Source of the DNA: Haematococcus lacustris
Lineage: Eukaryota; Chlorophyta; Chlorophyceae; Chlamydomonadales; Haematococcaceae
DNA: 64,000 bases
NCBI GenBank assembly: GCA_030144725.1
Contig: JASKMD010000003.1
Coordinates: forward strand, 6,315,480 to 6,379,479
Reading direction: 5' to 3'
Shown here: piece by piece, positions 13,238 through 43,160 of the stretch
Position numbering within the stretch: the stretch's first letter is position 1
How the letters are laid out: each line of letters begins with the position of its first letter
Translations under genes and position numbers: made by a program
Notes under the pieces: model-generated
Told to the model about the DNA's origin: nothing
Databases searched by the model: none
Seen by the model: the letters and a program-made list of their open reading frames with translations, nothing else

Positions 13238-16743
<3,506 letters not shown>

Positions 16744-18444: not shown

Positions 18445-18675
18445 CTATACCGAAATGCTCAGCTGATACACCAGCAGTCTGCCATCAGCAGCGAACACCG
18501 CTAACCGGTCGTTGGTGATGCTCAGGGTGCTTAGTATCACCTTCTGAGTGAGCACCAGAGACCCCAGCACTTGCTGGTCATTGCTCCTCAGCACCTTAAC
18601 CAACTCCCCGTCCGTAGACTGAGCAACTGCAACTGGTGGTGTGGCATTGCAGGCCTGAGCCAAATCACCCACGTC
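18445..18675 (-). other. probable terminal exon of the NLR-like gene
   Basis: An open frame ending at 18445 contains [22 protein letters not shown], a degenerate WD-like strand set, after a good acceptor (CATGTTGCAG) at 18676. Phase does not match the simple donor of the preceding exon (18805-18957, phase 2). Either an alternative donor or acceptor is used, or the protein ends by reading through into [10 protein letters not shown] and the stop at 18783. Confidence 0.5.
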
Positions 18676-21600
18676 CTGCAACATGCAAGCTTGTTGCAAG
18701 TCAGCCACCGCATTGACTTCGGACACAACTCAGTGGCAGAGGTTTTGCACATGTATGCCATGATGTGGCGGCAGCCATGCGATCACGGTGACATGTAGAC
18801 ACACCTGATGTCATTGGCAGTCAATGATAAGAGAACCCGGCCATCCGAGCTTAAGGCCACCTTTCCTTCTGCTCCAGCTTCTTCTGTCCTCTTGCAAGTG
18901 CTCTTGTCCAGGGTTCCGTCTTTGATTCTGCTCTTAAAATTGTTCAAGTCCCACACCCTGCATTGGCCATTGCCATTCATGAGCATTGCGGGCTACAGGC
19001 AAGGGCCATCATGTGTTGAAGTGCAGTGCAAAAGACACAGGATCCTGGCAAGAACGATAGCATCCTCATGGGATTAGCCTCTGAGGAGCTTGCATAGCGC
19101 TCAGCGCAAGCGCCGGCGGTCGTACACGAAAAATGATGGTTGTATTGGGACCACACAGGGCGGCAACAGTAGCAGGCTTAGGTGTGTTTCAATTCTGAAT
19201 TGGCTGAACTGGATGCCTTGCCCGACGTGCTAATCTATGTCGACCTCACTTTCTCCCCACTTTCGACTCAGACGGCAGCACCCCGGATGGTTGGCGGCAC
19301 CCCGGATGGATAGCGAACTGATGCGCACCCCAGCACGTCCACCCCGCTTTGATAGGGTTCCTGAGTCCCTGAGATGGCCCCGTCTCATCCGCACATTGTG
19401 CATACGGCAAGCCCCAAAGCTTGGCAAAAACCTAGACCCCCAAGAGCTCACTGACGATGCGATGCAGTGTGCATCGCGCGACAATGAGACTTCGTACATC
19501 AAGTTGGTGTGTGTGTGCTGTGCTGTCTTGTGTCTTCAGGTGCCAGTGGTAGTGGGCCGGAAGCTCATGATGACGAGGGGCAGGGTGTCGAGGAGTTGCG
19601 GAGCTTCATGTGGTGCCATGAGGTTCCGCCCAACCCCCATCCCCCAGCCCCAGCCCCCTCTGCCCAGGTCCCCCCTGCCCAGGCCCAACCACCTGCTGCA
19701 CCTGGCCCAGTGCCACGACCCATGGCCCCCCCATGGGGCAGGTGGCTGGACCGGGACACCAACACATGCCTCAACTTCTAGCGCATTGGGGGGAGCATGC
19801 AGCGCCCCCTGGAGCTGTGCAGCTGGAAGGACATGGAGTCTCTGCCCCCCATTGGCAAGGAGTACCAGCAGCGCTGCAAGCTGGTCAATGACCGGCTGCC
19901 CATGGTCAGGCAGAGGTTGCACCGGGCTGCAGAGTACATGGATATGGCGTTGATGACCAGGCCCGTGACTATTGATAGAGCCTAGCTGTCAGCCTTATAA
20001 GGTCCATCTAGCTGTTGGTTTTGATGAGGTGGCTAGTGGTCTTTGGATGGACCGTGCCACCGGTGTGGGGTTTGTGGTCATCAAGTGTGCGACCGAGGAC
20101 GCTATAGTTGGATTGTAGCTGAGGGAGATTACCTACAAACAACACCTTGTTCCATGTTGAATAGGGTAGTTGAGCCTGCCAGGGCTGTTGTGGAGGGCTG
20201 TGAGAAGGGGCAGCCAGGTACTACCAGCGCTGTCACCCTGGACACGTTGAGCTGCAAGGTGTGGAGGTTAAGCTCCAAAGGCTATGGACGCAGTCAACTC
20301 TAGGCGTGCCTTAGTGACTGCACAGAAAGAAAGAAAGAAAGAAAACTACTCCGGTACAAACCGGCGTGCATTAAGGGAGGAGCTTCCGCCTGTGGCGCGG
20401 CCTGCTCCCACCTCCAAACGTTGGACACAGGCTGGACATGTCCCCACCAAGCTGCCCTAGCTGTAGCCACAGACCACAGCTAGCACCTAAGGCAAACAAA
20501 GAGGCATGAGAGGAGCAAAGACTAGTGCACTCGGCAGCTGGCCTTGTCTCTTCTCCTCGTTGACGAGAGCAATTCCAACCTTGTCCGCCAGATGTCGCAC
20601 TGAAAGCTGAAGTTCGGGCTCCAAAAGTCCAAACTTCAGCTGTCAGCCAACGTCCCGCGTTGAGGTAGCTCTGCTCCCTCCTTGACGACGCCAGCAACTC
20701 CACAACAGCTCGGTGACCCGCAGCGGTCGTGTGCGGCACCCGGACCTCATTTGTATTCCGCTGGACAAAGCGGTGCCCGTTCAAGCCTGGGAAGGCTTTC
20801 CCGTTGCATCCCAATTTATATACCGCTGGGTGCGGTGGTGAGGTAGCTTAGCCAATCCGTGCGACCGAAGTCAACGCGGATTGTTACCAGGGCCACCGCG
20901 TGGAGGTGCCTCACCGCCAGCCCCGTGACTGCACACCCACCTGATGGTCTTGTCATCTGAACCCGACACCAAAGTCCTGCCATCGGGGCTCAGAGCTAGG
21001 CTGCTCACAGACACCGTGCGTTCTTCTTGGATGGGCATGTAGTTGCCAGTGGTCAGGCTCAATGCCAGGCTAATCGCACTGCAAGCAAGCACAACATGAC
21101 CAACAAGAGCACTTACGTTCCGTTAACATAGCAGCACCAGCACCAGCACGTACCAGCACGTGGGAGTTTTGATGATGTCAGCACCATGTCGACATGTTTG
21201 CTCTAGCACAGGACAGACCAACGAGACACTGCGTAGTTGCGAGCTCGCCTAAGCTTCTATGTTGCAGACAATGTATAACTGTAAGAGCACAGGCCGTGAA
21301 GCATCTGTTGTTCACTTCTGAACTCCCACGGCAGGGCAGGCAGACAGGACGTTGCGCAGGCTGTTGGTGGTGTGCACCTAACGCTGATCAGTGCAGGCTG
21401 TAGGCCTAGAGGGCAACAAGTGATATGGTTTTACCAGAACTGTGCGTGCCCGCATCACACGAGCCTGAACTGGTGGAGTCTTTAGTCTTTAGTTCGAGTG
21501 CTGCAGCAATGCCAGCGGCATCCAATCGCACCACACACAGGCCCATGCCATGTAATGATGATTGGGCCTGATACCACATCATGCCGAGCATCAAGCCCAA

Positions 21601-24600
21601 GCCAAACCACCTGCTGCACCTGGCCCAGTGCCACGACATCTTGGTGACTTGCAATGGCAACAGCAACAACAACACAGTTACAATGGCAACAGCAACAACA
21701 ACACAACACAGCCAAACACACTGCCACAACTAACCCCACCGCCACCACCCCAGGGGTATGGCAACTCGTGAGGGGTATGGCAGCTTGTGTATTTTGGCAG
21801 CACCATCGCTGCTAGGCCCATGCCCCACTATGCATCTTGAAGACTCGCAGCTGCACCCACACCGTAATGTTGGTGTACAAGGTGGTGCCCACCCTGGTGG
21901 TGCCCACCCTGATGTATGCAGCTGCTGAGTTGTGAGCTCTGTCCCAGCAGCAGCTGCAGCAGGTGGATGTGTTGGACGCATGCCAGCCCATGGCTTTGTG
22001 AGGCAGCTCTAGTTCATGGCAGGACCCATGCTAGCTGGGCACGTGGTACAGGCTGGGAGGGTGCCATAACAGCCTGCCTGTGGTGTGCACCTGACATGGT
22101 GTGCACCAGTGGGTGTTGTGCACCTGACATCTTGTGCACCTCAGGTTGGTGCACGGCCCAGGAATCAGCGCAGGCTGCCGGCCTTAATGCTGAATGCCTA
22201 TTAATGTGCCAGAACTGTGAGGCATGTCGTGCCCACTTCATAGAAGCATGAACCATAGCATATTGTGTCTTTGAACTAAGATAATGATGACGACCTCAAG
22301 GCCAGGCAGCAGCCAAGCTGCAGCGCCTGGGGTGAGGCTTGGTGGAGTGGGCTCTAGAATGCACACCCACCTTTCCAGTACCCTGGCATCGTGGCCACTG
22401 AGCGTACTCTGCGTTTTGTCTGTAGGGTCCTCCAGGGAGCATAAAAAGCAAGCTGTGGTCATGTCCCACAACCTGCAAGCAAGTAGGGCCTGAATGCTTT
22501 GAACAAGCAAGGCAAAGAACAAGAAGACGACCTATCTTAAACATCAGCGTGTATGAAAAAGAAAACCCCAGCCGGGGCATGCCTGCTCTAGCGGCAAAAC
22601 AACCCCCTCATCCCCTTCCTCTTTCCCTACCACTTCTTGATTATAGTTGGGCGTTGGTTTGGGTTTCTCACTGTTTTAAAGCCGACTGTAGGTGACTGCA
22701 CACCCACATGATGGTATTGTTGCCAGATCCTGACACCAGGAGCTTGCCGTTTGGACTTAAGGTCACACAGGTTACACCATGTGTGTGCCGGTCCAGGGTG
22801 TGTGTGCTCTTGCCAGTGGCCAGGTCCCACACCCTGCAAGCAAACACAACATGGCCATGCCCGAGATATCAAGTATAGTCAGAAATGTACAGGTACATAA
22901 CGATTTGTAGTTTCCCGTATTGGAGGGATACTACTAATTACGCATGCATGCAGAAACAGTAATACCTTAAAATACTTAAGCACAACATCTCTACCTTGAA
23001 TGTCACCTCCATGGCGCAAGTGTAGCGCACTCACTTGATGGTCTTGTCCTCTGACCCCGACACCAGGAGTTTGGCGTCAGGGCTTAAGGCTACACAGTTC
23101 ACAGCTTTTGTGTGCTCATCCAGAGTCTTTTTGCACTTGCCAGTATCCATGTCCCAAACCCTGCAACAAAAGATCAACAAGGATGCACAAGCACAAGTTA
23201 TGTTGACAAGACATTGCTTAGCTGCGTCACAGATGTGCCGACATGTTATGAATGCGTTCAACATGGCGGGTCCCAACACCACCCTACAACGCAATTGCAC
23301 ACGCCTCCACTGTGCAAGCAACGAGCTATGGCCTAAGGAGCAATGATCAAGGTACCTGGGTCATGTTGCATGACATGTTTTGTTTAACTGTGTGGAAGCA
23401 GGTGCGTGCTATAAGACATCATGAGCAGACAATGGACGAGTTTGTGTGTCATGTGTGTCATGTGTGTCATGCCCTTGCTGCAACCCCACCCCTTGCAACC
23501 ATAGCTCAGGCACTGTCCAACAAGCTTAGAGACCCCTTCTGCAGCCTGAGGATCCAGGAGATGGCAGGGAAGCAAGCAGTGTTTCCTGCAGCCTGCTGCC
23601 GGTCTTTCCCATCCCTTGGCAGCCGCCTTAGCCAACTCACCATCACTCGTCCTCACTGCTACCCTTGCCGCAGCCCCACACCCTTCACCCCTAGCACACA
23701 TGGCTGCCCCTGCCGTCAGCGCAGCTGCCCTCTCTGAGGCTTCACCCCTAGCAACAGCCCCCCTCCCTGCCTTCCCAACGCTTGCCCCCCTCTTCCGCTC
23801 ATCAACATAACCAGCAGCACAGACTAAGAAAAAGACGCAGCTAAGGGCAGGCCTTACTCAGAAACTGGAGGGCAAGGCTGAGGCAGCAGCAACAACAACA
23901 ACAACATGGGGCCCAAGGGGGGCACCAAAGGTAACAGCAGCAGCGCCTAGGAAAGTGTAGAAAGCTTTCTAGTACAAGAAGGTGAGGAGGCAACATCAGT
24001 GTACTGGATCGGCAGCGTCAGCATCTGCACATGAATGGACTTGAAGGGATCAATGGAAGTTATGGCAGGAAGATGGCAGGAAGATGGCAGATGTCAGGAT
24101 GTCAATAGTCAACAATTTCACCTAGATGGGCGGAAGGCAGAGGGCAAACGAGACCACAAAGTCATTATGTCATTATCATTGATACTGCTCGTGATGTGAA
24201 GACCAAGTTTAACGTCGTATCTTTTGGGGTGCGTAACAGCATGAATTGCAGCATGTCATTATGGAGCATCCTCCAGCCCACCCACGACACCTCATGCCAA
24301 GCTCCAGCCCAGCCAGTCTCAGACACTTTTCGCAGTTGTGATGAGGACGTGCCTCACATAGCTGAAGTGCTACCTCCTTCAGGGCTGCGTCATGGGCTGT
24401 GATGGCTGATGTAGAGACAACGACTCACAGAAATCAACGTCAGCAAATCGAATGGTTTGACTAGAGACTTGGTACATCGCCGATTTTGGTGGTATCATAA
24501 ATAAGCTTGAGGAGGTAAATCAGCAGAATGCAAAGGTGCTGGACGGCATGCCTGGATAGTAGACTGTATCTGCCAATTATTGAGATATCTTGTCTGGTGT

Positions 24601-27600
24601 TCTCACTTCAATCATTCTTGTGTTAGACATCAAACCTGTGGGTATTATACCTAGTCTCAGCTTTGCAAAGCTGTACGGAGCTACTGTTGGGGCGTTGAAA
24701 CAATGATGACAAATGGAAACCATCCACCTAGAAATAATGTGTATTCTTTGATGATACTAAAAAGCACTCATTCCCAATAATGGTGTTGAGTATCAATGCT
24801 GAGGTCAACGGTCAAGGGTTAGATAGAGTGGGACACAGGGTGTGTGACGGTGGTTGCCCACCCACTTGATTGTCTTGTCCTCAGACCCTGACACAATGAT
24901 CTTCTTATCGTGACTCAAGGCCACACTCCTCACTCCAGAGCTGTGCCCCACCAGGGGGCGTGTGCAGTTGCCGGTGGCCAGGTCCCACACCCTGCAAGCA
25001 AGCAGGGCATGACCATCGTCTTCAGTCAAATGATACCTCTACGTCTAAAGCCAACATGGATACGCACAATTTGGATGAACAAGACAGCTGAGTCGTGGTG
25101 CATCATCATTAGCATCATAGCTGGACATGTGCCCTTCAACATTGCAACTAGTCACACAACCGCTTCTGATGCATGCCTGACTGCTTCTGGCTCAAGGGCA
25201 ACAGCCTGCACTGTTGCTTGGGCTGCAAGGTACCATATCACACCACCCACAGGTAAGCGTGGCGCCTTGCCAAGCTGTCCACCCTACAAAACCACCATGG
25301 TCCCTGTTGCCATTAACGACTGATCCCTTTCCATCACGAGAAAATCACAGTCCGTGATATCCCCATAATGGTCGGCACTTCAGCCGCTGAAATCGTTGAT
25401 TTGACGCGTGGATGGCCTCAGACATGACATACCATAAGGGTCGCGGCATTAGCGCTGACTCGCGGGAAAAGTGCACGCCTTGACACAGTTACTGGAAAAG
25501 TGCACGCCATTTTCTTGAACATTGTTACCCCCCTCTCCCTTGACCTCGAACTATGACACAACAAGGTGCCACCAGGCATTGCTCATCCCTCCACGACACC
25601 GTGCCAAGCTAAAGCCTAGCCTGTCTCAGGCAAAAGATGAGAACTCATGAGCATGCCCCTCACATAGCTCACGTGTCACTCTAATAGGTATGCTGATATT
25701 GCAATTTATGGCCACCGCCATATGAGGATGTTCCACACCCATGCAAGCAAAGCATGTGTGCATCATGCAACAGGGGGACAAGGCGTGAATGACGTTAGCA
25801 CACCATACAAGGTGGTGAGCACCGAAATACGAGGATTGTAAGATAAAGTCTATGTAGGTAAGGGATTGTAGAATGGGCTCTAGGTGTGCATTGGTGAGTC
25901 CCCACTCACCTGATGGTCTTGTCCTTGGACCCTGACACCAGGATCTTGCCGTCATTGCTGAGGGCAGTGCTCATCACCTCATCCTTGTGCCTTCTTACAG
26001 TGCCGGTGCGACTACCGATGGCCCACACCCTGCAAGCAGGCATGACATTAGCAAGCACAACATCTCCTTATTGTGCGGGCAAAAGAACTCACAAATTACA
26101 CAACACCATTCCCATTCGCATTCTTGAGCAACTACGACACCATGCTACAAAGACTACCAGCATCAAGTCAACATGAGCATACAAGTACCAGTCAATGTCA
26201 ACGAGACCACGTCTTGTGTATTTCATCCCAATTGCCTGAGGTGCAAAAACGCCATCCCCCTTAGGAATGTGCCAATGGTTGGGATGGAGTGGACTCTAGG
26301 AGTGCATTCGTACTGTACACCCACCTGATGGTCTTGTCCCTGGACCCCGACATCAAGCTTTGGCCGTCCAAGCTGAAAGCCACACTTGTCACTTCGCCAG
26401 TGTGCCCCTCCAGGGTGTGTGTGCAGCTGCCAGTAGTGATGTCCCACACCCTGCAAGCAAGCAAGACATATCCATCATGTGCATATGTATGGCCGCGGAG
26501 GCGAGGACAAGTCCATTAGTTTCGCATAATGAGCGAGTTATCTGGTATATCTGAGGTCCGCGGCCCGTCAATTATACAAATGCATGTGGCCCGGCAATTA
26601 TGAAATAGCGCGGCCAAGTATGCGTAAATGTAGACATCAAATCGGTTCTACACCTTGAACGCTGAGTTTGTCAAGTCCATCCCTAGGTAAGGCAGCCTGC
26701 TGGGAGCTCAAAGCGACATGTCATGGCCCACACGTCATGGTGGATGCTTGTTCACGCCACGGCCCACAAACCCAAAACCTTTGGTATGACTATTGATAGA
26801 TGGTGTCCTTACCTTGCAAGCTACCGACCCACAAAAATCAAGCAAAAGAGCGAAGCTTGGTCGAGAAGGCTATCTTCTGATTTCTTTGTTGTGTTGTGAG
26901 TAAGAATTGCCCTATACTACTAGTGGGATTATCATCAATGCCCAGGAATACAATGTGTGTGGTTAAGTGCCAAAGGGTGGGGCGAAGTGGACTCTCAATG
27001 TGCATCACTAAAAACACACCTACCTAATGAAAAGAAAGAAAGAAAGAAAGAACAGATCTACTGAGAAAGCAGGACAGGAAATTATGTTGTGTTCAACAGT
27101 CTTGTCGGCGCGGATTTCATCTTCCTCTCTGTTGTAGGAGTTACCCATTACAACCAAAGCCACGCATAGAACGACAGGCGGAACTCCTACCTGATGGTCT
27201 TGTCGGCAGACCCTGACACCACGACCTTGCCACAAGGACTGAAGACCACACTGGTCACACCGCTTGTGTGCTCCTTGCAGGAGTGTGTGCAGCTGCCACT
27301 GGCCACGTCCCACACCCTGCAAGCAAACAATACATAAGTTTAAACCATTAGTGTATTGCCACACTATCCATGTAACCTGCGACGCTGTAAAACAAGGTCT
27401 GAAGTGTTTCATTGGCATAGAATTTGTGCCCAAGTGTGCTACCCAGTAGAATGATGCAATGCAAGCAGTGGCAGCAGTATTAGCTTGGAAACATCCTCCA
27501 TGCCACCATGGGTTACCTTAAAATGTGTACCTTGACGCGCCCCCTCCCTATGGCCCTCCAAGCATTACAAAACATTGTGCCACCAGGCATCCCCCAGAAC

Positions 27601-30600: not shown

Positions 30601-33600
30601 CTTTCTTTCTTTCTTTCTTAACCTGGTCCCCTCACTAGGGGTGATGTCTTGTCCGTGTGGAGTTATGATCCCATGCACATGGCATGGGCGGAGGTCCATC
30701 GCCCAAGGCTAGGGGTGAGGGGACTCAAGGCGGCATTGGTGACTGTACACCCACCTGAGGGTCTTGTCCCTTGACCCCGAGAACATGATCTTGCCATTTG
30801 GGCTTAAGGCGACACAATCGACATATCTTGAGTGCCCCACCAGGGTGTGTATGCACCTGCCCGTAGTCACGTCCCACACCCTGCAAGCAAGTTGGGCATG
30901 ATCATCAAGCTATAAGCATTGGTCAACTCGTATGCAGATGAATGATTTGAACTGACAAGACCGATCTCAAGGCGCGGCAGAAGCAGCCACCTACGAGACA
31001 AGTGATTGCCTTAGGACAAGTGGTATGTAGGCATGACATTTATGTAGCTTGCAACAAGATTGTGTGGGGTGTACAAGAAACTTCTAGGAAACATGGCAAG
31101 ATTGACATGACAAACCTTACTTCTGCGCAATGCTGAAACCAGGCTTCAAATGCTTCAAGATGCAGTGTTGTGCACACATAAGGACCAGCTCAAGTTGTGC
31201 ACCCTCGTGACAGACACATTAAGGCAAGGCTTTTCAAGCCCAAGTGTGCTGCCCCATGGGATGATGAGAGCTACGTGAGTCATGCAATGCAAGCAGTGGC
31301 CTCACAAGCTTTATGTACCAGGGGTTGCATTGCTCTACACCTAGTAGGACTAGCTTGGAAGCCTCCATGATGCCACCATGGGTCAACTCAACATGTGTAC
31401 CTTGCGGTACCCCCTCCCCCTTTGGCCCTCCAACCATTACAAACCAAGGTGCCACCGGGCATCCCCCAGCTTTCACATGACGCCTCCAGCCTACCAAGCC
31501 TTAGAGACTTGCCTTGGCAATTATGAGCAAGTCATGAGATGTGCCTCACCAAGATTGAGTGACACCCCCTTGCGGGCTACATGGAGCATTGCAGTCGCGA
31601 GGTACCATAGGAGTGTTCGTCTAAACTATCGACGACGTCATCAGCAATAGGCGACATGCAAGTTGCCAAGGAGAGCGAGTGAGATGGAGTGTACACTAGG
31701 TGGGATCTGGACCTACTACTCACCTAGTCACACACCCACCTGATGGTCTTATCATTAGACCCTGACACGATGATTCTGCCGTCGAGGCTCAGGGCCACAG
31801 CCTTCACAACATCTGTGTGCTCCTTAAGGGTGTGCATGCATTTGCCAGTGGCAACGTCCCACACCCTGCAAGCAAGCATGACATCAGTCACATTTTACAC
31901 CACGTTTGGCTCGCATGACAGGACCACAGGTCTATAGGTGCATGCTTTAGCCCACAATAGACGGACTGCTGAGCAGTGCTGGGCGATTGGGTAATAATGT
32001 AATAAGTCGGTAATAATCCAGCGCAAAAAACGGTAATAAGTCGAAAAAATCGTCCTCAAAATGAGTGAACTTTATTATATCGGTAAAAGCTCCACCGCCC
32101 GTTTGGTACTCCTCTTATTACTTATCCCCCAACAATGTATCCCATCTTCCGCAAACCCCAAAGCGGGCGGCTGCCCACCACAGCCGAACATCCATCGCAG
32201 AACAACCACATAGCGTCCCAACGCTCTGTAACAACAAGTGCCGATGACGAAGGCGTTGAGGTCAGTAACCGCAGCATGTCCGTCAACGCAGCATGTCAAC
32301 AACGCGATGCGATGGGTATATCTGGGTGCAGAGCGTAGCAAGCGATGATGATGCGGACTTGGAATGTGGGGCGGTTGAGCGGGGCTGGGGTGTGGGGCTA
32401 TGTGGGATATATTGCATCCAGGTCCTACAAGGGAGTATGCTGTAATTGTACAGACTCAAATGGAACTGATTTTTGCGATTTCTTTTAATTTTATTAAGAA
32501 ACTAATCAATAAATTATTTATTATATATTTTAAAGTAATAAAAACTCATGTTTTGATGTTTTTTATTACACTGAGTAATACGTCTTTGGCGAATCGCCCA
32601 GCACTGCTGCTGAGTCACAATGGTGCAGTTGTGCTCCAGCACCATGCACGCCACCGGCAGGACCTGCGCCCAATTCCCAAGGCATTCTTCGCAGACCCCG
32701 ACAACTCTGCCATCACAGCTAAGCTGGTGGAGCTGGACAAGACAGAACTGGCGGGTGACTCCAACACCATCGGCGCCCTTGCCAAGCAAATGGCTGTTAA
32801 CACGTAGGTAATGTTCGTTAACCCCGGTAAGAGGGGTGGCCATTGCAACTCACTGTGTCCTATGCAAAGCAAGGGTGATGTCCATGTATGCTCAGAGTGT
32901 TGCTAGTTATTCCTCATGTGTGGGCTCATGATGCATGTTGCATGATACATGATGCATGTTGTGCTTACGAGTTGCTTAGCAGAGCGTTATGTCAAGCTAT
33001 AGGCCAAGGCAGCCCGCTCCAAGTACGGCATCACCCTCGAGGTGGCCAAGCTCTTTGTGCGTGTCGTGTGCCAGTACGGCCTCAACTACAGCAGTTCCGA
33101 GCTGCGTGGCACCCCGCTGGAGGACCCCGAGTGGCAAGAGCGGATTGCCTTCCACCGGCATGTGCTGACCGGTGTACCAGCGGATGTGGAAGAGGCAGCA
33201 GCCCCAGGTGACCCAGCAGACCCTGATGCGCCGCCACCCATTACCAAGCTGCCGTTGCATCGGCGGAATCTGTACGCAATCTACGTCAGCCGGTGCCTTG
33301 AGGAGTGGCAGGACCCTAACCCCCTAGAACCCCCACCCAAAGGCGAAGGCAAGGGCAAGGGCAAGGGCAGGGGCAAGGGCAGGGGCAAGGGCAAGGGCAA
33401 GGGCAAGGGCAAGGGCAAGGGCAAGGGCAAGGGCAAGGGCAAGGGCAAGGGCAAGGGCAAGGGCAAGGGCAAGGGCAAGGGCAAGGGCAAGGGCAAGGGC
33501 AAGGGCAAGGGCAAGGGCAAGGGCAAGGGCAAGGGCAAGGGCAAGGGCAAGGGCAAGGGCAAGGGCAAGGGCAAGGGCAAGGGCAAGGGCAAGGGCAAGG

Positions 33601-36600
33601 GCAAGGGCAAGGGTCCTAGGGTGCCCTACTGCCCCCCACCCTTCATCCTCACCCCCATGGCAGGGTCAGGTACTCACTTCATCATGATAGATACCAGGGC
33701 CTTGCATGGGGTGTGCAGTCAGCTAGGCCTGACCACAGCCACAAAGGAAGCTTTTCAGCATGCTGCCTACAGTCACTGGGACAGTGTGTTTAAGGTAGGC
33801 AAGCTCGCCAACCGGGGGTTTGTGTTTAGTAGGTAAATCCTCACTGATGGGGACAGTGTGTGTGTGCAATACACACGCCCACTGGACTACACCAGGCAGC
33901 AGCCCAGCAGCTGGCCCCTCTGGCAGCAGCCCAGCAGCAGACCCCTATAGTAGCAGCCCAGCAGCTGGCCCCTGTGGCAGCAGCCCAGCAGCTGAAGACC
34001 CCTCTGACAGCAGCAGCAGCAACAAGCGCCAACCAGCTGACATGGGCAGCGGCCTGGCTGACGAGCGGGCGTTCTAGTTTGACCCAGCCACTCAGATGGG
34101 CTCGGGGCTGGACCCTGGGGCCATCTAGGCAGTCAGTGCAGCTTCAGGGGTGTGGGATGAGGATGGCTGCCTGGACAGCTTCATCAGAAGCAAGCTGACC
34201 AGGAGCCAGGTGCAGCATGACAGCGGCCTGATCCAGGCTCGCCACAACACTCAGCGGTGGAATGAGAACATCAAGCTCGAGCTGCAGCACCTGGCAGCAG
34301 CCACCCCAGCAGGCACCTCCCTGGTGGCCATCCAGTGGCATGTGGCCGTCACGCTGGCCACTTGGGATACAGTGTGGGAGGAGTACCTGCATCCCAAGTG
34401 GGCTGCTCACTTGATGAGGCTGCATGGCGCGCAGGAGAAGGTCCTGGAGCGCTACTTCAAGGAGGTGGGAGTGCCAAGGGAACGGGGGTAGGGGCAGGGC
34501 CAGATGATGATGACTGCGCCACATGTGACCTGCTAGGTGCCCATGTCCCCAATCCTTGCAAGGATGTCATGTGCGGTGTGTGCCTTGTGTGCCATGCAGT
34601 TGGAGGAGGAGGCAGCTATTGAGTCCCAGAAGCGATGGGGGACCCGCAAGCAGCTGGTGATGTTCTTTGGCAACGCAGGCATTGGCACGCGGGGTGGGTG
34701 GGGGGCCAAGGCTGTGTTGCAGGCCTGCCACAAGGTGGTGAAGAGGCCCAACAGCGGCAAGCCAACCGACAGGGTGAAAGGCAAGGTGGTGACAGTGGAT
34801 GAGTTCCGCACCAGCAGGGTGAGCTCGGCTATGAACAGCCCTCAGCCCTGTGAGGCGGAGCTTGACCGTAGCAAGCCCACCAGGCTTGAAGGCTGGAAGC
34901 CCCAGCCAGGTCAGGTGCAGAACCGCTTGTTGCGGTCAGCCTGGAGCAAGCGGTTTGAGGCGCCAGTGCGGGGGCTCATGTGGTGCCCACAGCTGCACCA
35001 GGCCACCCCTGGTGACCTTGGCAAATGGGTGGACAGGTATTGCAACGCAGCCCTCAACATGCAGCGGGCAGGGGAGAGCAAGTTGCGCCCACTGGAGCTG
35101 TGCAGGTGGGAACACCGAGCAAGGCTTCCTGCCCAGAGCAAGGAGTACCCAACATTGGGTTTCAAGAAGCTGCGAGACCGAGCCCCCAAAGCCCTAGCCC
35201 AGCAGCTTGTAGCACAGTAGCATGTGTGCACCGCGCAATGCTTAAGCTGTTGCTTACATCAGAGCATGTGTTTTATGCCAACATCGGTTGCCCTACTCTC
35301 GCAAGGGGGGAGGGGTAGGAAATTAGGTATTGGTACCGGATGCTTGCTGCATGCAAACACTCCGGATGACAGATAACACAGCCTCTACCGCAGATGAGTT
35401 GACAATGAGATGAGTTGACTGTGACATGCTACCGATGCATGGCATACTTGTAACATGGGCCTTTTGTCTTCGTTTGAAGCTGATGCAGTGGGCATATGCA
35501 TGGTTATGCATATGCATGCTTTAGCTCACAATAGACGGACTGCATAGACAACGGGTGTGTACGCGTTCGGCAGAAGGTTTGATAGGATTTAATTATGTTC
35601 CACCGCCTGATCTGTAAATCTAATGGCAGCTTAGCAGCCAGCCTGAAGGGGCAGTCTGCAAGGGTACCACCCGGGCCTATGGTTGTTGTGCATACAATGT
35701 AAAAGCAGGTGGCGCTTGCAGGAGGCATTGTTGCAGGGCTGTGTGACTGGCTGGCAGTCAGTGGCTGTCAAAGTGGCGAGGCATGGCATACTTGCAACAT
35801 GGGCCATCTAGTAAAATTGTCTTCGTTTGAGGAAGCTGGTGCAGTGGGCATAGGCATAGGCTTTGTATAGGCATGTCTATGCGTAGGCATGGGGAAGCAG
35901 CAGCAGCGAACCTGGTGGGAGTAGGGTAGTTGGGCATCCCACCAGACAGAGGCACCCTGGCAGTGCACTTGTTCACTGATGCCCTCAGTACCTCTGTCAC
36001 TGCAGGCTGCCACCCACCTGACTGTCTTGTCATCAGAGCCTGAAGCAATGACCCTGCCATCTGTGGCCACAGCATTGACGTCAAGTTCATGGCCATTCAG
36101 CACGGCCAGGCAGGCTGTCCAGTCGTCCTCCTTGGTTAAGAGGCTGGCTGCAGGCTGGTTGGGCAAGGAGGCAGCTCGCTTGGCCACAAAGCTGTTGTGC
36201 GGGGCATCTCTTGCCAGCTGCAATGCCGCCCTGCACATGATTGTTTGGTACATTTGCTCCAGGCCAGGCAGCAAGACATGTGACAGAGGGCGATAGGAAG
36301 AAACGTGAGGGACCTGACCTGGTGAGGCTCCACAGCAGCAGCACTGGGCAGGCCTGACCACCCACCATGGATATTTGACCAGGGTGTTGCTGCACATGCG
36401 CAGCCAGCGGGCCACATCCAGGACTATTGGCTGGCAAGCAGCCGGGGCTTGCTGGCTTAGGCCCATCAGGTCCCTCAGCACATCAGGCCCATGACCTGGG
36501 CAACACGATGCAGGCAGGCCTGAGTGCTAGCATGGCTGGACTGCTACACCAGTGATGGGACAGGCGAAGGCAGGCAGGCAGGCAGCCTGGCCTTACTTAC

Positions 36601-39600
36601 CTGCTGTGTAGGTAGCCTGCCAAAAGCCAAACTCCAGGATCAGGGTCTGGAGTACATCAGCATCGCCTGACAGGCAGGCATGCGCCACCGCATGCCGCAA
36701 GCTGTAGCCCAGGCCAGTGCCAGGTACATGGTCTGTGCAGCTCAACGTACTGTTGGGTTTGCACATAGCAACACAATGCTTGGCCTGCTGGAGGCAAGCG
36801 CTGGCCAGCAGGCGGTGGCCCTGCTGTGGGCTGACTTCGAACTGGCCAGCAGACATGCCCGCCGCTGAGGTCAGCCAGTCCAGCACTGATTTGTGATAGG
36901 GGGCCACACGCTCCTGCTGGTCTGAGCCGGCAGGACGGCAAGGGAACAGGTTGGCCAGCAGCCCCACCAGCTGCTGCACCTGCAGGGCCAGGGCCAGGGC
37001 CAGGGGCATGACGTTTTGTGATTGCTGGCTGGGCATCATCAAGGTCAACCCGTACAACAGCATGGCAATGATAGCAGCCGGCTGTGCTGCCCACCTTGCT
37101 GGTGTCTGCTCCACAGCCTGTAGCCCAAGCCAGCTCCGGCACCGTCAGAGGCTCCAGGCATGCCACCAGGACAGGCAGCAGGCAGGTGCGCAGCAGCTCC
37201 AGCAGGTCAGGCTGCTCAGCCTCAAGGGCCTCCTGCAGCGTGCTCAGCACCCGGTGGTACATGCCCTCCAGCCCGCTGGGCAACCGCGCCTTCAGCTCCT
37301 GCAGTGTCCATGTTTCCTGCTCTGCCAGGTTGTCAAAAGCTGCAAGCAGGCAATGCAACAGGCAGTGGGTCAAGATGGCAGCATTGTGCACTGGCACCAA
37401 CAATGAGTCAGTGCTACAAAGCACAGAGGTGGCACTACAAAAGCACTACAGGAGCCAGCTGGACCACGACACACAGCATCTGGGTAGAGCGTGCTAAGGA
37501 CCACGACATACAGTGGGGTAAGTGTGGGGCAGTGGGGACGCGGAAATGGACATACAGCGGGCGGAGCGATCTGAAGCTTGGCACACGCACCGTACTTGGT
37601 GTATATGAACTGCCCTGAGCTCTTTTCCAGCATCAGCTGGGCGGCGGCATCCAGGTCACAGTCTGCCACCAAACGGCCCTGACCCAGCCGCCATTTCAGC
37701 AGGGCCAGCATGTCAGCCTCGTTCTGCAGTGCCTCAGGCTTGATCCACTCCTTTGGCGTAAGCTTCCAGGCGTCGAAGGCTGGCTCCACTTGGGGCCGCG
37801 CAGTCAGCAGGACACGCACCCACACTGGCAGCCGCAGGAACCTGGACAGGGGTGGGCACCACAGCAGGCAGATCAAGTGAGACTGGCGTCAGCAAGGGAG
37901 GCTGGCCAGAAGGGTCACAGCAGAGATCTGCTCCAATACGTCAGTATGGCATAAGCGAAAGAGGTTTGCCAGAGGCGTCATTGTTGTAATATCTGACAGC
38001 GACTTAGCCATGTGCTGGACAGCAGCATCGGCATTACAAATGTGCCTGGGCAGGCAGGCCACTCACTCCTTGGCAATGAGGTCAGTGACTGGCTGCCACC
38101 CCCTGCCACCATCATCCGCCTCATCCAACGCGTCCAGCAGCAGCAGGACAAAGGGCCGGGGTGCTTCTGGATGCAGACCCTTGTCCAGCTTCAGCAGTGG
38201 CTCCAGCAGGAAGCTGCAGTCAGCAGCAGCAGCAGGTGCAGGGGGCTGCTAGCTACTGGGGGAGAGGGAGGGGGCAGGGCAGCAGCCAGGCTGAGCACCT
38301 GGTGAATGTGTCCTGCATGGACAGCTTGGTGGCGTTGCCGTGCTTCTCCACCACTGGCACCAGCAGGTCAGCCAGGCCCGGCAGCTTCTCAGCCAGCTGC
38401 AGTGCCAGGCAGAGCAGCATGGTCCGGCCTTGGGACCTGGTGTGGCCCACAGTGAAGAAGTGGTGAGCCTGCGGCAGCAGACGCGGAGGCAGTAGGCACT
38501 CTATAGCCATATGCTTCGGCTGGTAAGGAATACTGCTTTTGGTTGCAGCTTAACCTTGGTCCTTAGGGAGGTGCTGAACACGCTCTTTCTTGGTCCTTAA
38601 GCAGTACCTCACTCACCATGACCAAGTTCCTGTCCTTGTTGCCCCGCACCACCAGCTTGGTGTGCATGACCGCACTGAACACGCTCTTGCCCATGCCCGC
38701 ATCCGCCAGGAGCAGGAACAGGCGGGAGGCTGCACCCTCATCACCAGGGCTGCAGCTGCTGCTGGCGTTAAGCCAGTCATTGACTCGGTCGTACATCCAT
38801 TGCCGGCTGCCTGGGTGGTACTCATCCAACAGCTGAGCAATTCTGTAGCTGCGCATCACCTCAGCCATCTGATGAGGGACATGAGCAACAGTGAGTCTAT
38901 GACGGATGATGGCAAGTCTATGGATCATTGGGCTGTGCGTGGGTGGTACAGGAGCAGCAGCATGTATGGGACTTGCCTGCAGCTTGCTGCACATCAAGGC
39001 CAGCTCTCCAGCGCTCTTCAGCTTCTTGGTTGCCACTTTCCGGTCAAAGCCCTGCCTCAGTAAGACATACGATAGAGGGCAGGAGGGAGAAACTTGAGAC
39101 ATGGTAACATCTGACATGGTGAGCCCCACAGCAGCAGCACTGGCCAGGCCTGACCACCCACTATTGACATATGGCACATTGACATATGGCACACATGGCT
39201 ACATTACTAACCAGGTTTTCAGTTGCAATGAATGGCGGGTGGAGGGAGAGGGCGGCCAAGCAGCCTAACGGCTGACGGCTTAAGCGGTGTAAGCCACCTA
39301 TCTATCAATGAATGGCAGGTGATCGGGCTTGACAGCCTGGACCTACGCTCCCCAGAGTAAATTGAGGTGCCGCTGAAGAAGCACACCAGGAATAAGGCGT
39401 CCAGTAGATCAGGCAAGCCCTCAGGCAGGCCAAGAGCCACTGTCTTCGCGTACTCGATCCCCAGCTGATGCAAATAGTTTAATTCTGAACGGGTCTGCGC
39501 ATCCATGTCGTAAGTGCCAGAGCAGCAGGCAGCAGGGGCGTCAGGTGCAGCTGAGAAGGCACACACACTGCTTATACACCACGTACAGGCCAGCGTAGCA

Positions 39601-41285
39601 TCATGTGAAGAGGCCACCCACCACATAGCCGTCCTCGTCCTTGTCCATCAGAGGCATGACGACGCAATGCAGGTACGCATGTTCCTGGTCTGGGGGCAGT
39701 GGCAGCACTTTCTCCTCACGCAATGTTTCATCATACTCAGCCAAGGTCCTCTCCAGCCTGCATACACACACATACTCCCTCTTCATCACATGCACAATCA
39801 TGCATGCGCTTGTCTGAGACAGAACTAAGGCTGGGCGGTGACATGTGACGAACCCAACATGGACGTACCCTTCCTTTTTAAACCAGTTGACCAGGTGAGC
39901 AAGGAAGACGCTGTTCGCCACTCGCCCTATCAGCCTGCCCACTGTGTCCTTCCACCAGGTCTGCAGATAGTTGGGCAGCGCCACTGGGCCCCTGGCAGCC
40001 GCCTTGTCTTGGGAGTCTTGAAGCTGAGCAAGCTGGGACTTCACGTCCGCAATGTCCAACTTGATGCCCTTCAATTCTGCACTCAACGCCTCCAGCTCTG
40101 ACACAATGACCTGGTCTTTGAGCCCGCCGTGCTGCTTTAGCAACCTACGCAGCAGCTCGGGTTTGAACTGCTGCAGCTTCTTCACTGCCTGCTCTGCTTT
40201 GCTTTCAGGCAGCTCAGCAGCCTTGCACACTGCTTCACGGAAGGCTGCCATCTCATCCGTGTAAGTTCTTTGCGTGATAACCAGCTCCACCGCCATGGCA
40301 AAACACGTCTCCTGCAGCCACCACCCCAGCACCCAGAAGAGGTGCAGCACCAGGCAGCCAGCATCAGGGGCATCAGCAGCACCCACCTGCATGGCCGCCC
40401 TGATGTCCGCATCCAGTCTCTCAAACTCAGCCTTGTGACTGTTGCTCATGATGGCACGCATCAGGAAGCCATGCTGATTGTACGAGGCAATCACATTGCC
40501 CGCCTCCACCAGCAGCTTAGCCATGGTGAGCATGCCCTGTGTGGCGGCCTGCAGCACCTGCAGGCCGCCCTGCTGCTCATCAAGACACAGAAGCTTGGCC
40601 AGCTGCCTGTCACACTCCTTCACCAGGTTCAGCAGCTGCCTGGCGTTGATTGTGTTGACCGCAGCCTGCAGGGGCAGCACAAGCAGGACACTGTAGTTAT
40701 TGCCAGCAGGCTGCAGCCCCAGCATAGGACAGTTGTGCCATCCAGCTGGTTGGCAGGCCTGTTTTATGCTGGCAGTGTGACAAACATGCCGCTGCCAGGC
40801 TGTCGTGGCAGCAGCCCAGCACCTGTTCAGCCCGGTTATTAGCACGGCAGCCTGCAGTGATAGCACGAGCAAGACTCTTCCCAGCAGGACACCGCAGCCA
40901 TAAACTGGGACCTAGAGCCCAGACAGCAGCCCAGCACCTGTTCAGCCCGGTCGTAGATGCCGCCGATGACCGCTGCCATCAACGGCCCGAAGGGCAGCAC
41001 TTCCAGGCAGGGTTTAGTCCAGTACACCACCACCTTGCCCAGCTCTGACAACTGCGCCAGCTTGACCTCTGCCTCAGTGCGGGGCGGCACCTTCAGCGTC
41101 TGCACATTCACTGCGCCCTGCTGGCTGCCCCAAAGCTTACGTATTGCACTGAAAACAAGGTCCGCCTCATCACCACACACCACTGGCGCCGCCCACTTCC
41201 GCCTCTGCTCGTCAGCCTCTGACCCTTTCTGTGGCTGTGCTGAGGCCGCTGCGTTGCCTTGATCTGATGGCTTACTTACAGCCAT
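18445..41285 (-). CDS. NLR-like STAND protein: helical N-domain, NACHT, WD40 repeats
   Basis: A roughly 28-exon minus-strand gene of about 1,700 residues. Most exon joins keep phase: 40938-41285, 40387-40665, 39869-40311, 39618-39757, 39343-39550, 38977-39055, 38617-38868, 38299-38468, about 38067-38245, 37591-37841, 37095-37339, 36601-36979, 36366-36495, 36018-36230, then WD exons down to 18805 and a terminal exon at about 18445-18675. Walker A ADAGMGKS, Walker [14 protein letters not shown] and sensor-like [10 protein letters not shown] identify a NACHT ATPase. The WD40 array should form one or two ligand-sensing propellers. STAND proteins oligomerise on ligand binding and trigger immunity or cell death in plants, animals, fungi and bacteria; that role here is inference. 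The start ATG at 41285 is tentative (another lies at 41393). The joins 38299/38245 and 18805/18675 do not keep phase as drawn. Confidence 0.88.
19509..19984 (+). pseudogene. Fanzor/TnpB-like C-terminal remnant
   Basis: Plus-strand fragment inside the NLR-like gene intron. It reads [10 protein letters not shown], a Pro/Ala/Gln linker, then [12 protein letters not shown], a TAG stop (19779-19781), and [16 protein letters not shown] and IGKEYQQ. The WxDRDxNxxLN motif is the RuvC-III signature of TnpB/Fanzor RNA-guided nucleases, and the following ELCxW/GKEYP block is shared with the other copies in this window. The TAG replaces a Gln expected before RIG. No RuvC-I part remains. Confidence 0.6.
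20325..20924 (-). mobile_element. 600-bp retroposon, copy 1 (CTTT tail, 11-bp TSD)
   Basis: On the minus strand the element begins GGGGCTGGCGGTGAGG and ends in a (CTTT)4-5 tail. It is flanked by an 11-bp duplication (plus-strand GTGACTGCACA) at 20314-20324 and 20925-20935. It has a TATATAAA box about 110 bp in and a 147-codon open frame just after it (20371-20814), which is broken in copy 2 and therefore probably not conserved. It entered only 5-16 bp beyond the donor of WD exon 20941-21078. Tail and TSD indicate LINE-mediated retroposition; it is either a large SINE or a non-autonomous retroposon. Confidence 0.85.
21555..21770 (+). pseudogene. small duplicate of the Fanzor-like linker region
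   Basis: The stretch CCACCTGCTGCACCTGGCCC followed by AGTGCCACGAC at about 21608-21638 matches 19689-19719 in the Fanzor-like remnant, then departs into AACAGCAACAACAACAC repeats. A minor duplicated scrap in the NLR-like gene intron. Confidence 0.5.
23161..24865. other. large NLR-like intron with unidentified repeats
   Basis: Intron between WD exons 24866-24991 and 23035-23160. A plus-strand segment at 23820-24010 with AGCAGCAACAACAACAACAA and short open pieces looks like decayed element coding sequence but cannot be assigned. The segment 24262-24400 (CACCCACGACACCTCATGCC and CATAGCTGAAGTG) is homologous to parts of three other WD introns. Confidence 0.5.
27030..27185 (-). mobile_element. 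156-bp SINE inserted on a splice donor
   Basis: On the minus strand the unit starts AGTTCCGCCTGTCG and ends in (TTTC)4 TTTT. It contains TGGCTTTGGTTGTAATGGG and a weak B-box-like GATGAAATCC, suggesting a diverged tRNA-type head. Flanking 11-bp repeats CCTACCT(A/G)ATG lie at 27019-27029 and 27186-27196 (10 of 11 identical). The right-hand duplicate spans the last 6 nt of WD exon 27191-27316 and its gtagg donor, so the target was the exon/intron boundary itself. Confidence 0.8.
28635..30012. other. NLR-like intron, relatively AT-rich, unassigned
   Basis: Intron sequence between WD exons 30755-30880 and 28503-28634. It has no supported gene and is less GC-rich than its surroundings. The palindrome GTGCAGTACTGCAC at 29336-29349 and further TAGTGCACTACTGCA-like motifs at 29440-29510 hint at an unclassified repeat. 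Confidence 0.4.
30024..30619 (+). mobile_element. 600-bp retroposon, copy 2 (CTTT tail, 11-bp TSD)
   Basis: Plus-strand copy of the element at 20325-20924, beginning GGGGCTGGCGGTGAGG and ending (CTTT)n. It is flanked by a perfect 11-bp duplication AACCTGGTCCC at 30013-30023 and 30620-30630. It shares the TATATAAA box (30126-30133) with copy 1, but its short frame stops early. The two copies are inverted relative to each other, 9.1 kb apart, both inside introns of the NLR-like gene. Confidence 0.88.
31974..32606. mobile_element. non-autonomous hAT transposon, second family
   Basis: A 633-bp insertion with 15-bp perfect terminal inverted repeats CAGTGCTGGGCGATT and a perfect 8-bp target-site duplication CTGCTGAG at 31966-31973 and 32607-32614. 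The interior contains GTAATAA-type subterminal repeats near both ends and a very AT-rich core (about 32460-32580), unlike the GC-rich host. There is no transposase. TIRs and TSD differ from the 17414-18345 element, so a different hAT source is implied. Confidence 0.9.
32615..35217 (+). pseudogene. Fanzor/TnpB-like gene, copy A, with stops
   Basis: Plus-strand pieces in order: about 32615-32804; about 33003-33834, interrupted by a Lys-Gly array; about 33838-34464; then, after an intron (AAGGAG gtggga to gccatgcag), 34600-35217. Motifs include [27 protein letters not shown] (the TDG block before RuvC-I), GLDPGA (RuvC-I), [21 protein letters not shown] and [12 protein letters not shown] (RuvC-III). 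These fit eukaryotic Fanzor nucleases, relatives of TnpB, although the zinc-finger Cys residues are mostly absent. Stops at 33834, 34075 and 34126 break it; two of them replace Gln codons still present in copy C. Family assignment is by motif order only. Confidence 0.6.
33340..33613. repeat. AAGGGC hexamer array coding Lys-Gly
   Basis: About 45 copies of AAGGGC with two AGGGGC variants near the start, in frame inside the Fanzor-like copy A, encoding a (KG)n linker. A hexamer keeps the frame, so expansion is tolerated. Confidence 0.95.
35243..35850. repeat. 3' flank of the Fanzor-like unit and local duplication
   Basis: 35243-35395 matches 51838-51985 downstream of copy C (GTTTTATGCCAACATCGGTT, AGGGGGGAGGGGTAGGAAAT, GGATGCTTGCTGCATGCAA, CAGATAACACAGCC), so both Fanzor-like copies carry the same 3' flank. 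Separately, 35436-35505 (CATGGCATACTTG, AACATGGGCC, TTGTCTTCGTTTGA) is repeated at about 35779-35850. Confidence 0.75.
36366..39055 (-). other. NLR-like gene: NACHT NTPase and winged-helix region (exons 6-13)
   Basis: Exon 38617-38868 carries the P-loop [20 protein letters not shown]. Exon 38299-38468 gives [19 protein letters not shown], the region after the P-loop typical of NACHT-WD proteins. About 38067-38245 carries Walker [17 protein letters not shown]. Exon 37591-37841 has [14 protein letters not shown] and [10 protein letters not shown]; exon 37095-37339 has [13 protein letters not shown] and [14 protein letters not shown], typical of the winged-helix part. Exon 36601-36979 has [10 protein letters not shown], the HxSxxDFL-type element. 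The intron after exon 38977-39055 is GC-AG (GCTGCAG then gcaagt). Key catalytic residues are present, so ATPase activity is plausible. Confidence 0.9.
39343..41285 (-). other. NLR-like gene: N-terminal helical region (exons 1-5)
   Basis: Exons 40938-41285, 40387-40665, 39869-40311, 39618-39757 and 39343-39550 encode about 470 residues ahead of the NACHT. The second exon ([16 protein letters not shown], then [19 protein letters not shown] and [13 protein letters not shown]) has the heptad and Cys pattern of MLKL/HeLo/RPW8-like four-helix bundles, the cell-death-inducing N-domains of many NLRs; this likeness is by eye. Exon 39869-40311 is strongly amphipathic ([19 protein letters not shown], then [19 protein letters not shown]) and likely coiled coil. 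Exon 5 contains [18 protein letters not shown], a hydrophobic segment. Confidence 0.6.
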
Positions 41286-41712
41286 TGTCTGCTGAACACT
41301 GCTCCTTACTGTCTTGTCCTGCCCAGCTTGAAGCTGCGAGCAGGTATGGCGGTGGTTGTCTGTAGTGTGATAGGTCCCAGCGCCAGCAGCCATGGCAGTG
41401 GAAAGCAGGCAATGAACAGAGCCAGCCCTGAGCCTGGACATGGCAACAACCACATCCATGAGGCAGAGCCAGAAGTGCAATGGGAGGCAGGCAATGCCTA
41501 GACATGCTGCCTCTGGCTGGCTCTAGCCAGCCGCATGCATGCAATGTCATACACCTTGAAAGCTGGCCTAGTGCACCCATGTACCCACTCACTGGCAGCA
41601 GCACATGCTGAGACATGCACACTGACTTAGCCGTGCTCAGCTGGCACATGCTGCCATGGCCCCAACCCGCAGTAGGCGCACATGCCTGTCAGGCAATGCT
41701 GACCGGGCACAC

Positions 41713-42717
41713 AGCCCACCCAGCCCACCAAGAGCAAAGGCAAGGGCCAGGGCATGGCTGCTCAGCCCAGTCTACACAGGACGCTGGAGCTATTCTTCAA
41801 GAAGGTGAGGGTGGGTGGGTGGGTTATGTATTGGGAGGTGGTGGGTGGGCATGAAGTGAAAGAGTAGTGAACTGTACCATGCCTAACCTGGTGCAACTAT
41901 GTCAGCCGCCCTGTCTGCCTTGTGTTCTTGACTGAAGCTGGAGGAGGATATGGCGGAGGTATCTATGGGGCGCCACAAGCGTGTCAAGCAGCTGGTGACA
42001 TTCTTTTCACAGCTGGCATCAACACCCGGGGAGGCTGGCGTGCTGACGCGGTGCTGCGAGCCTGTTGCACGGTGGTGTGCAGGCCCAGGGGCACAGACCA
42101 GCAGCGGGGCAGGGTGGTGCTAGTGGATGAGTTCCAAATCAGCCGGGTCAGCAGTGACTGGCCAGCAGCCCTGTGAGAACAGGCTGAACAAATGCATGGC
42201 CACTAGGCTGGAAGGTTGGAAAACCCCAGCAGGGCAGGTGCACCACCGGCTGCTGCGTCCAGCATCGAGCCAGCAGCGTGACCAGCCAGTGTTGGGCCTG
42301 ATGTGGTGCAAGGTAGTGGCCCCCCGCATCCTGCCTCAGCTCCCAGGCAGCCAGGCCACCACACAGCTAGCAGCCTCTGAGCCTGGGCCCAGCACACCCC
42401 GCCAGCCAAGCGCAGCAAGCGCAGCCAGGCTGAGCAGGCAGCCAAGCCCATCCAGCCCACCAAGGGCAGAGGCAAAGGCAAGGGCAAGGCTGCCCAAAGG
42501 CTGCTCAGCTCAGCCCACCAGCACCACAGCCAGGCAGATGGGTAGACAGGGACTGCAACGCAGCATTGAAATTGCAGCTTATCGGGGAGAGCAGGTGGCA
42601 CCTGCTGGAGCTGTGCTGGTTGCCAAGGGCAAGGAGTACCCTGAGGTGGGGTACAAGCGGCTGCGAGACCAGCCACCCAAGGCCCAGCAGCAGCAACAGC
42701 CTGCTAAGGCACAGTAG
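41713..42717 (+). pseudogene. Fanzor/TnpB-like copy B (C-terminal half)
   Basis: Plus strand, diverging from the 5' end of the NLR-like gene. A short exon ends RTLELFFKK at 41804, then an intron (gtgaggg to ttgactgaag), then 41938 onward (LEEDMAEVSM, VLVDEFQISRVSS-like, LGLMWCKVV, a Pro/Ala/Ser linker, WVDRDCNAAL at 42539-42568, GKEYPEVGYKRLRD). The RuvC-III Asp pair is intact, but the motifs lie in different frames, so frameshifts have occurred, and the RuvC-I half is absent. Confidence 0.6.
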
Positions 42718-42955: not shown

Positions 42956-43079
42956 TGTGTTAGCTACGTGAGTACATTGATAGGTACATTGAGCGAGAGG
43001 AGCACTGGCACCCAATCACCTTGTCATGTAAACTGGATTTTTCTGGGGAAGGTGATGAATGGTCAGGACGGGAGAATCC

Positions 43080-43160
43080 ACACCTCATAGCGACCTAAGC
43101 GTCAACGCCACGACGATGTGGTGATTGGTGTCAACGCCACGACGATGTGGTGAAGAGTAG
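43080..43160. repeat. 24-bp direct repeat
   Basis: GTCAACGCCACGACGATGTG plus GTGA occurs twice in tandem with a short spacer. Confidence 0.8.

Follow-up and report, generated by a model that had tools for sequence, protein, structure and literature searches.

The stretch analysed here, referred to as the window, comprises 64,000 nucleotides of the green alga Haematococcus lacustris (contig JASKMD010000003.1, positions 6,315,480 to 6,379,479), and its minus strand carries a multi-exon gene for a receptor-like protein. The gene is real; its model was built from the minus strand both manually and with a script. A short first exon is followed by an MLKL_N-type helical domain, an EF-hand loop, an NPHP3_N/NACHT ATPase with a winged helix, and 14 WD40 units. 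On sequence evidence the gene is placed in a predicted family of Chlamydomonadales receptors resembling the nucleotide-binding leucine-rich-repeat receptors (NLRs), and the NLR-like architecture that the original prediction had proposed for a green alga is supported by profile searches, a model of the ATPase part and the evolution of the family. A 27-exon model running from 41285 to 18805 encodes 1609 amino acids without a stop, and all of its 26 introns are GT-AG except for one, which is GC-AG. In another H. lacustris assembly, the annotation made by other authors includes a protein (P0002) that shares these joins from exon 1 through 13 WD exons, the number also present in the window gene, and differs from it within exons by a few small insertions or deletions.

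The limits of the gene differ at both ends from those first proposed. The original prediction had placed the start at 41285; the true start is at 43088, where a first coding exon of 23 codons (MRCGFSRPDHSSPSPEKSSLHDK; 43020..43088) with a splice donor matches the N-terminus of P0002 and has an equivalent in the adjoining paralog C (MGCIFSRPDHSS). Since this exon is part of the gene, exon 1, which lies downstream of it, begins at 41333 (40938..41333) and contains the ATG at 41285. The last exon (about 18445..18675), encoding a closing strand, is 7 bases shorter just after its start than in the paralogs and is thus out of frame with exon 27, so that the protein should end at about 18588 and not at 18445, as had been read. 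A predicted H. lacustris protein of this locus (P0001, QJQ45_010968) is identical to the window in its first 60 residues and agrees in its exons; because it retains some introns and ends before the WD exons, this database entry appears to be mis-annotated.

All exons lie on the minus strand. Exon 1 encodes additional N-terminal helices and the first MLKL_N helix, exon 2 (40387..40665) the other helices of this domain, and exon 3 (39869..40311) a helical or coiled, brace-like region. The EF-hand loop of 12 residues, between the N-domain and the ATPase, is split by the intron between exons 4 and 5 (39387..39757). A linker and the Walker A motif ADAGMGKS occupy exons 6 and 7 (38617..39051), the remainder of the ATPase with a further Walker motif exons 8 to 11 (37095..38468), and the predicted winged-helix/HD2 arm with the element YHKSVLDWL exons 12 and 13 (36366..36979); these are the motifs that had been named beforehand, and all are present. 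The first WD unit lies in exon 14 (36018..36230). Thirteen exons of one WD unit each follow: exon 15 (31740..31865), exon 16 (30755..30880), exon 17 (28503..28634), exon 18 (27865..27990), exon 19 (27191..27316), exon 20 (26325..26450), exon 21 (25910..26029), exon 22 (24866..24991), exon 23 (23035..23160), exon 24 (22708..22833), exon 25 (22371..22472), exon 26 (20941..21078) and exon 27 (18805..18957). Exon 25 is short and degenerate, exon 26 degenerate at its start, and exon 27 degenerate. All 13 enter in phase 2, and eight measure exactly 126 bases, or one 42-residue unit; the earlier count of about 14 WD units and the phase consistency of their introns are therefore both correct. In Pfam the window protein scores 440.3 bits for WD40 over 12 stretches, which identifies its C-terminal part as predicted superstructure-forming repeats.

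The ATPase of the window gene matches the Pfam family NPHP3_N (PF24883) at 54.5 bits against a cut-off of 24.8, whereas Pfam NACHT itself reaches 18.9 bits, under its cut-off of 26.7, and the winged-helix family HTH_TANC1 reaches 25.4 bits, under a cut-off of 27. NB-ARC gave no Pfam match at E <= 1, and Pfam NACHT gave none in the alga's own genome searched exon by exon. In an AlphaFold model of the P0001 ATPase part, the first structural match is Apaf-1 (E 1.7e-8), covering ATPase, winged helix and arm. Profile and model together indicate a signal transduction ATPase with numerous domains (STAND), with Walker A and B, a helical domain and a winged helix, in agreement with the NACHT-type ATPase originally named. 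The ratio of nonsynonymous to synonymous change (dN/dS) between the window copy and paralogs A, B and C is 0.07-0.49 in 11 of 12 comparisons of ATPase exons 7-10 and 0.86 in the other. For exon 11 it is 0.75-2.9, with few synonymous changes, and for exon 2 it is 3.6 against A (again with few synonymous changes), 0.32 against B and 0.90 against C.

The N-terminal domain was recognised at the level of the family. Three relatives exceed the curated Pfam MLKL_N cut-off of 27 bits, namely P0011 (36.9 bits), P0007 from Dunaliella (29.8 bits) and P0014 (28.6 bits). MLKL_N was matched by all seven members of one set of sequences (A2; E <= 10) and by all eight N-domain pieces of another (A4; E <= 1, best 6.5e-10), and in A4 every other family was found in at most one member. 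A profile built from A4 reaches the N-domain of human MLKL at E 1.4e-7 and mouse MLKL at E 8.5e-6, aligned over positions 12-111 of its 115, whereas the seven-member A2 profile reaches mouse MLKL at E 1.3 only; A4 is the shorter and more diverse of the two. By profile, then, the family has a predicted MLKL_N domain as its N-terminal effector, as in NLR-like receptors. The name "death-domain-like" given to this region beforehand was wrong, while the suggested MLKL/HeLo-type N-domain, with its first helix in exon 1 rather than exon 2, is upheld by the family profiles, a support that does not extend to the proposed likeness to RPW8. Single-sequence searches of the PDB with the N-terminal part and with the ATPase part returned chance matches only. 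The VIA list of structural matches is largely confined to residues 552-949 and is therefore uninformative on MLKL, which it does not contain.

Several relatives begin with MGC, presumably an acylation-type start signal. It opens the proteins P0007, P0009, P0011 and P0014 and the genomic first exons of paralogs C, D, E, F and G, and P0013 begins with MGN. An EF-hand loop similar to that of the window gene was found by pattern search in P0004, P0007, P0009, P0012, P0013 and P0014, and was not found by the pattern used in P0011, P0015 and P0016.

The family was sought in the alga's own genome (308 Mb, 597 contigs), where 25 of 939 candidates were scored. The resulting 66 matches group into at least nine loci besides the window, partly clustered: on contig C476 at 0.56, 3.54, 13.51 and 13.55 Mb, on contig C175 at 5.07, 5.10, 6.41-6.42 (adjoining the window) and 20.96 Mb, and on contig C542 at 1.93 Mb. 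At eight of the nine, exons 1-14 are free of stops in their aligned parts, with exon 1 partly aligned and exon 6 (25 residues) undetected in five of these eight and exon 14 partial in one; the ninth (C175, 20.96 Mb) retains exons 11 and 12 only. The search for related Chlamydomonadales sequences, which had been proposed as a check, was successful: among candidates sharing most words, relatives were found in Dunaliella salina (P0007, P0010) and Chlamydomonas sp. UWO 241 (P0012, P0015, P0016), together with P0011, P0013 and P0014. The same parts are joined in one predicted protein in P0002, P0004, P0007, P0009, P0011 and P0012, from at least three genera. A search with the N-terminal region of P0007 returned P0007 alone, missing known relatives, and is uninformative on absence elsewhere; PADLOC gave no match for P0001 or P0007. 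Two further observations concern family members. The Haematococcus protein P0018 (QJQ45_026544), with leucine-rich-looking repeats, contains a fragment like exon 11 and is perhaps a chimeric gene or an annotation join. In the paralog A region (L011 with L022 and L033; C175, 5.064-5.094 Mb) the penultimate WD exon and the closing exon are each present twice, suggesting a partial tandem duplication.

Variation within the WD repeats is concentrated at five codons. Counting the 42 positions from the V of VWD, the top five for variability are 18, 19, 21, 37 and 39 in P0015 as well as in P0016, and outside these five the repeats of the two proteins are 87-89% alike; by the general structure of WD40 domains we take these positions to lie at the predicted binding surface. 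Their choice was not fully blind, as the repeats of the window, P0004 and P0009 had already been seen, and the arrays of paralogs B, C, F and G therefore serve as unseen arrays. In arrays D to G, where 39 WD exons (37 distinct) were caught by script, pooled dN/dS is 1.50 at the five codons and 0.31 at the others. Differences per base at the five codons are 0.41 in D, 0.37 in E, 0.49 in F and 0.39 in G, against 0.097, 0.065, 0.084 and 0.080 in the respective inter-repeat introns, a four- to sixfold excess, and random sets of five codons give P from 1e-5 to 1.3e-4 per array. Most pairs of inter-repeat introns can be aligned over at least half (41 of 66 in D, 28 of 28 in E, 7 of 10 in F and 42 of 45 in G), and these are 87.5%, 92.3%, 90.3% and 91.3% identical, respectively. 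Introns this alike, beside five diverged codons, indicate that whole exon-intron units of the C476 genes were copied recently while the five codons diversified. For the window, B and C pooled, dN/dS is 1.53 at the five codons and 0.42 elsewhere, synonymous change being almost saturated there. The window copy differs from P0002 at 4 of 40 residues in the five positions and at 2 of 288 in the rest (Fisher P 0.0024), and from B at 4 of 40 and 6 of 288 (P 0.023).

The introns and flanks of the gene hold other features. Two related groups of open reading frames lie in its introns on the opposite strand (33003-35220 and 41871-42717, both plus), with motifs such as RGGW and VDEF..SRVSS, and a fragment with a like motif lies at about 51815. 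A resemblance of these frames to TnpB/Fanzor proteins, noticed by eye, was unsupported by Pfam. Within the first group lies an array of 44 copies of GGCAAG (33348-33613), which translates to a GK repeat. Two introns of the gene contain similar repeat-like sequences in opposite orientation (20677-20766, minus; 30182-30352, plus). Elsewhere in the window are a perfect CAGG array of 876 copies (13240-16743), after which Ns run to about 17250, a perfect GGGCG array of 411 copies (44251-46307), possibly an assembly artefact, and a 22-base tandem repeat of 22 copies with 99% matches (7277-7762).

Taken together, the family probably encodes a nucleotide-switched receptor for non-self that drives MLKL-like membrane damage. 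Residues at the predicted binding face change faster than introns in recently active paralogs, and the most likely targets of the family are therefore changing molecules of non-self or altered self. We infer oligomerisation, membrane attack, calcium control, a non-self ligand and an immune or allorecognition role along the following lines. The WD40 repeats would form one or more sensor propellers, and ligand binding to them could free the NACHT/winged-helix ATPase from its resting state. The freed ATPase would oligomerise, as in Apaf-1 and NLRs, and such clustering would gather the MLKL_N-type domains at the membrane, helped in several relatives by the acylated MGC start. The gathered domains might then permeabilise the membrane, killing or arresting the cell, and the EF-hand could confer calcium sensitivity on this step. 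A broader proposal is put forward tentatively, as somewhat short of probable: single-celled green algae may keep a diversifying NACHT-WD40 repertoire of the fungal kind against non-self (a parasite, or a mate or strain), in which WD units are copied and homogenised as exon plus intron, five surface codons diversify, and an acyl-anchored, calcium-tuned executioner of MLKL type is built in.

A number of results weigh against the receptor reading. The window copy alone scores 17.7 bits for MLKL_N, and P0009 (20.5 bits) and P0013 (18.5 bits) likewise fall under the cut-off of 27; P0012 and P0015, scanned over the full stretch ahead of the ATPase, yielded no MLKL_N match in Pfam, although the N-domain piece of P0012 does match as a member of A4. 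A designed coiled coil scores E 1.8e-7 with the A4 profile, similar to MLKL, so helical composition adds to that score. Structural modelling, another check proposed at the outset, supplied the Apaf-1-like ATPase but did not confirm the bundle: the P0001 N-domain is helical at a predicted local distance difference test score (pLDDT; block means) of 29-52, and the helices of P0008 are likewise of low confidence (mean pLDDT 36). The Apaf-1 match has a template modelling score (TM-score) of 0.27 by query and 0.46 by target. The EF-hand is below Pfam cut-offs and its loop is degenerate in P0002. The window copy starts with MRC, as does P0002; P0012, P0015 and P0016 start without MGC, and MGC was not found at paralogs A, B, H and I, where the stretches for A and B may be too short. 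At the five codons the individual arrays have dN/dS values of only 1.13 (D) and 1.22 (F), beside 2.04 (E) and 2.11 (G), and values above 1 were judged from divergence relative to introns and other codons, not from a likelihood or codon-model test. Synonymous change is also raised at the five codons, so that local hypermutation or exchange may contribute. Within the window copy the repeats are old and un-homogenised, with an amino acid identity of 0.55 (0.81-0.85 in paralogs D to G), and in the window copy and in B none of 28 pairs of inter-repeat introns can be aligned over at least half.

Some of these observations would also fit a STAND switch built from the same parts for a house-keeping or stress task, such as stress-induced death, encystment or scaffold signalling, with no detection of non-self. 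NPHP3_N-type ATPases and WD40 repeats serve non-immune proteins as well. When the window gene is compared with P0002 over seven segments of the whole protein, divergence is highest in the EF region (0.292 substitutions per residue) and the brace, and only one segment has changed more slowly than the WD part (0.043). Ordinary WD40 proteins also vary at surface positions, and such variability may account for the old array of the window (P 1.1e-4); it does not account for the young arrays, where change exceeds that of the introns. The recurrence of that excess at the same five positions in four paralog arrays, the concentration of the differences from P0002 at those positions, and the partial clustering of the paralogs make the house-keeping explanation unlikely. 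Still less credible is a TEP1-like telomerase or vault protein: it would share a NACHT followed by WD40 repeats, and in a green alga, but TROVE was not found at E <= 1 by Pfam in the N-terminal 465-amino-acid stretch, which instead has MLKL_N. Chance reading frames, or an unrelated WD40 gene beside an ATPase gene, might be suspected from the long introns, one of them of 4152 bases with another frame inside; the six predicted proteins that join the same parts make this very improbable.

A different explanation, compatible with receptor function in the family, concerns the window copy itself, which may be diverged and possibly impaired. That it is a decaying, functionless paralog of a family at work elsewhere is conceivable and deserves some weight, but we lean against it. 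The shifted last exon and MRC in place of MGC, both of which also count against the receptor reading, the three degenerate WD exons and the inserted reading frames in introns would all suit decay. On the other hand, 27 exons are open with intact splice sites, P0002 has the same structure in another assembly, the ATPase exons are constrained, only a short tail is altered, and the 7 missing bases could be an assembly error. The C476 paralogs are in any case better test objects than the window copy. Chlorophyte immunity is little charted, and if the receptor interpretation is correct, a fungal mode of non-self recognition would also exist in single-celled algae, by descent, transfer or convergence. 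The family further provides candidates for the response of Haematococcus to Paraphysoderma sedebokerense, reported as its blastocladialean parasite.

Among known systems, Apaf-1 shares the structural likeness of its ATPase, winged helix and arm as well as a WD40 sensor, whereas its CARD and NB-ARC differ from the MLKL_N and NPHP3_N-type NACHT of the algal gene. Animal MLKL has an N-terminal domain that is homologous by profile, joined to a pseudokinase instead of an ATPase and WD40 repeats. Canonical plant NLRs combine NB-ARC with leucine-rich repeats; the algal gene has NPHP3_N and WD40 instead. A NACHT with C-terminal WD40 repeats, as in the window gene, has been reported in Chlamydomonas reinhardtii, in a paper whose main text contains neither "MLKL" nor "EF-hand", parts which the window gene does have (PMC4773052). 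Nucleotide-binding (NB)-WD40 genes of red and other algae (PMC7145615) and APAF1_C/WD40 genes of Ulva (PMC8891106) share the pairing of a nucleotide-binding domain with WD40, but are of NB(-ARC) type, some with TIR, and an MLKL-type N-domain is not mentioned in the relevant passages. For streptophyte algae, coiled-coil (CC)/RPW8-like bundles have been described, and for Chromochloris TIR-NLRs, neither being of the type of the window gene (PMC10952240). In titles and abstract openings on green-algal MLKL, Haematococcus NACHT and algal or Chlamydomonas NACHT-WD40, an algal MLKL_N-NACHT-WD40 family was not found described, subscription literature lying mostly outside this scope.

Fungal systems offer further parallels. 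MLKL-like N-domains are described for fungal NLRs; the basidiomycete BaMLKL NLRs have an N-terminus of MLKL_NTD type with an extra helix before helix 1, and NACHT WD architectures occur among basidiomycete NLRs (PMC9815663). Only the algal family adds to these a green-algal host, an EF-hand loop (a term occurring 0 times in the text of PMC9815663), an MGC start and one WD repeat per exon. The HNWD/NWD genes of Podospora (HET-E, HET-D, HET-R) are likewise NACHT-WD40 genes, whose repeats are about 85% identical to one another, evolve in concert and are under diversifying selection at four surface positions each (PMC4986451). Paralogs D to G show comparable homogenisation in both repeats and introns, unlike the window copy, and their diversification at few surface positions per repeat is seen as divergence relative to introns and other codons rather than in a likelihood test. 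Where the Podospora genes carry a HET N-domain, the algal family carries a predicted MLKL_N domain, and its repeats appear to have spread as units of exon plus intron.

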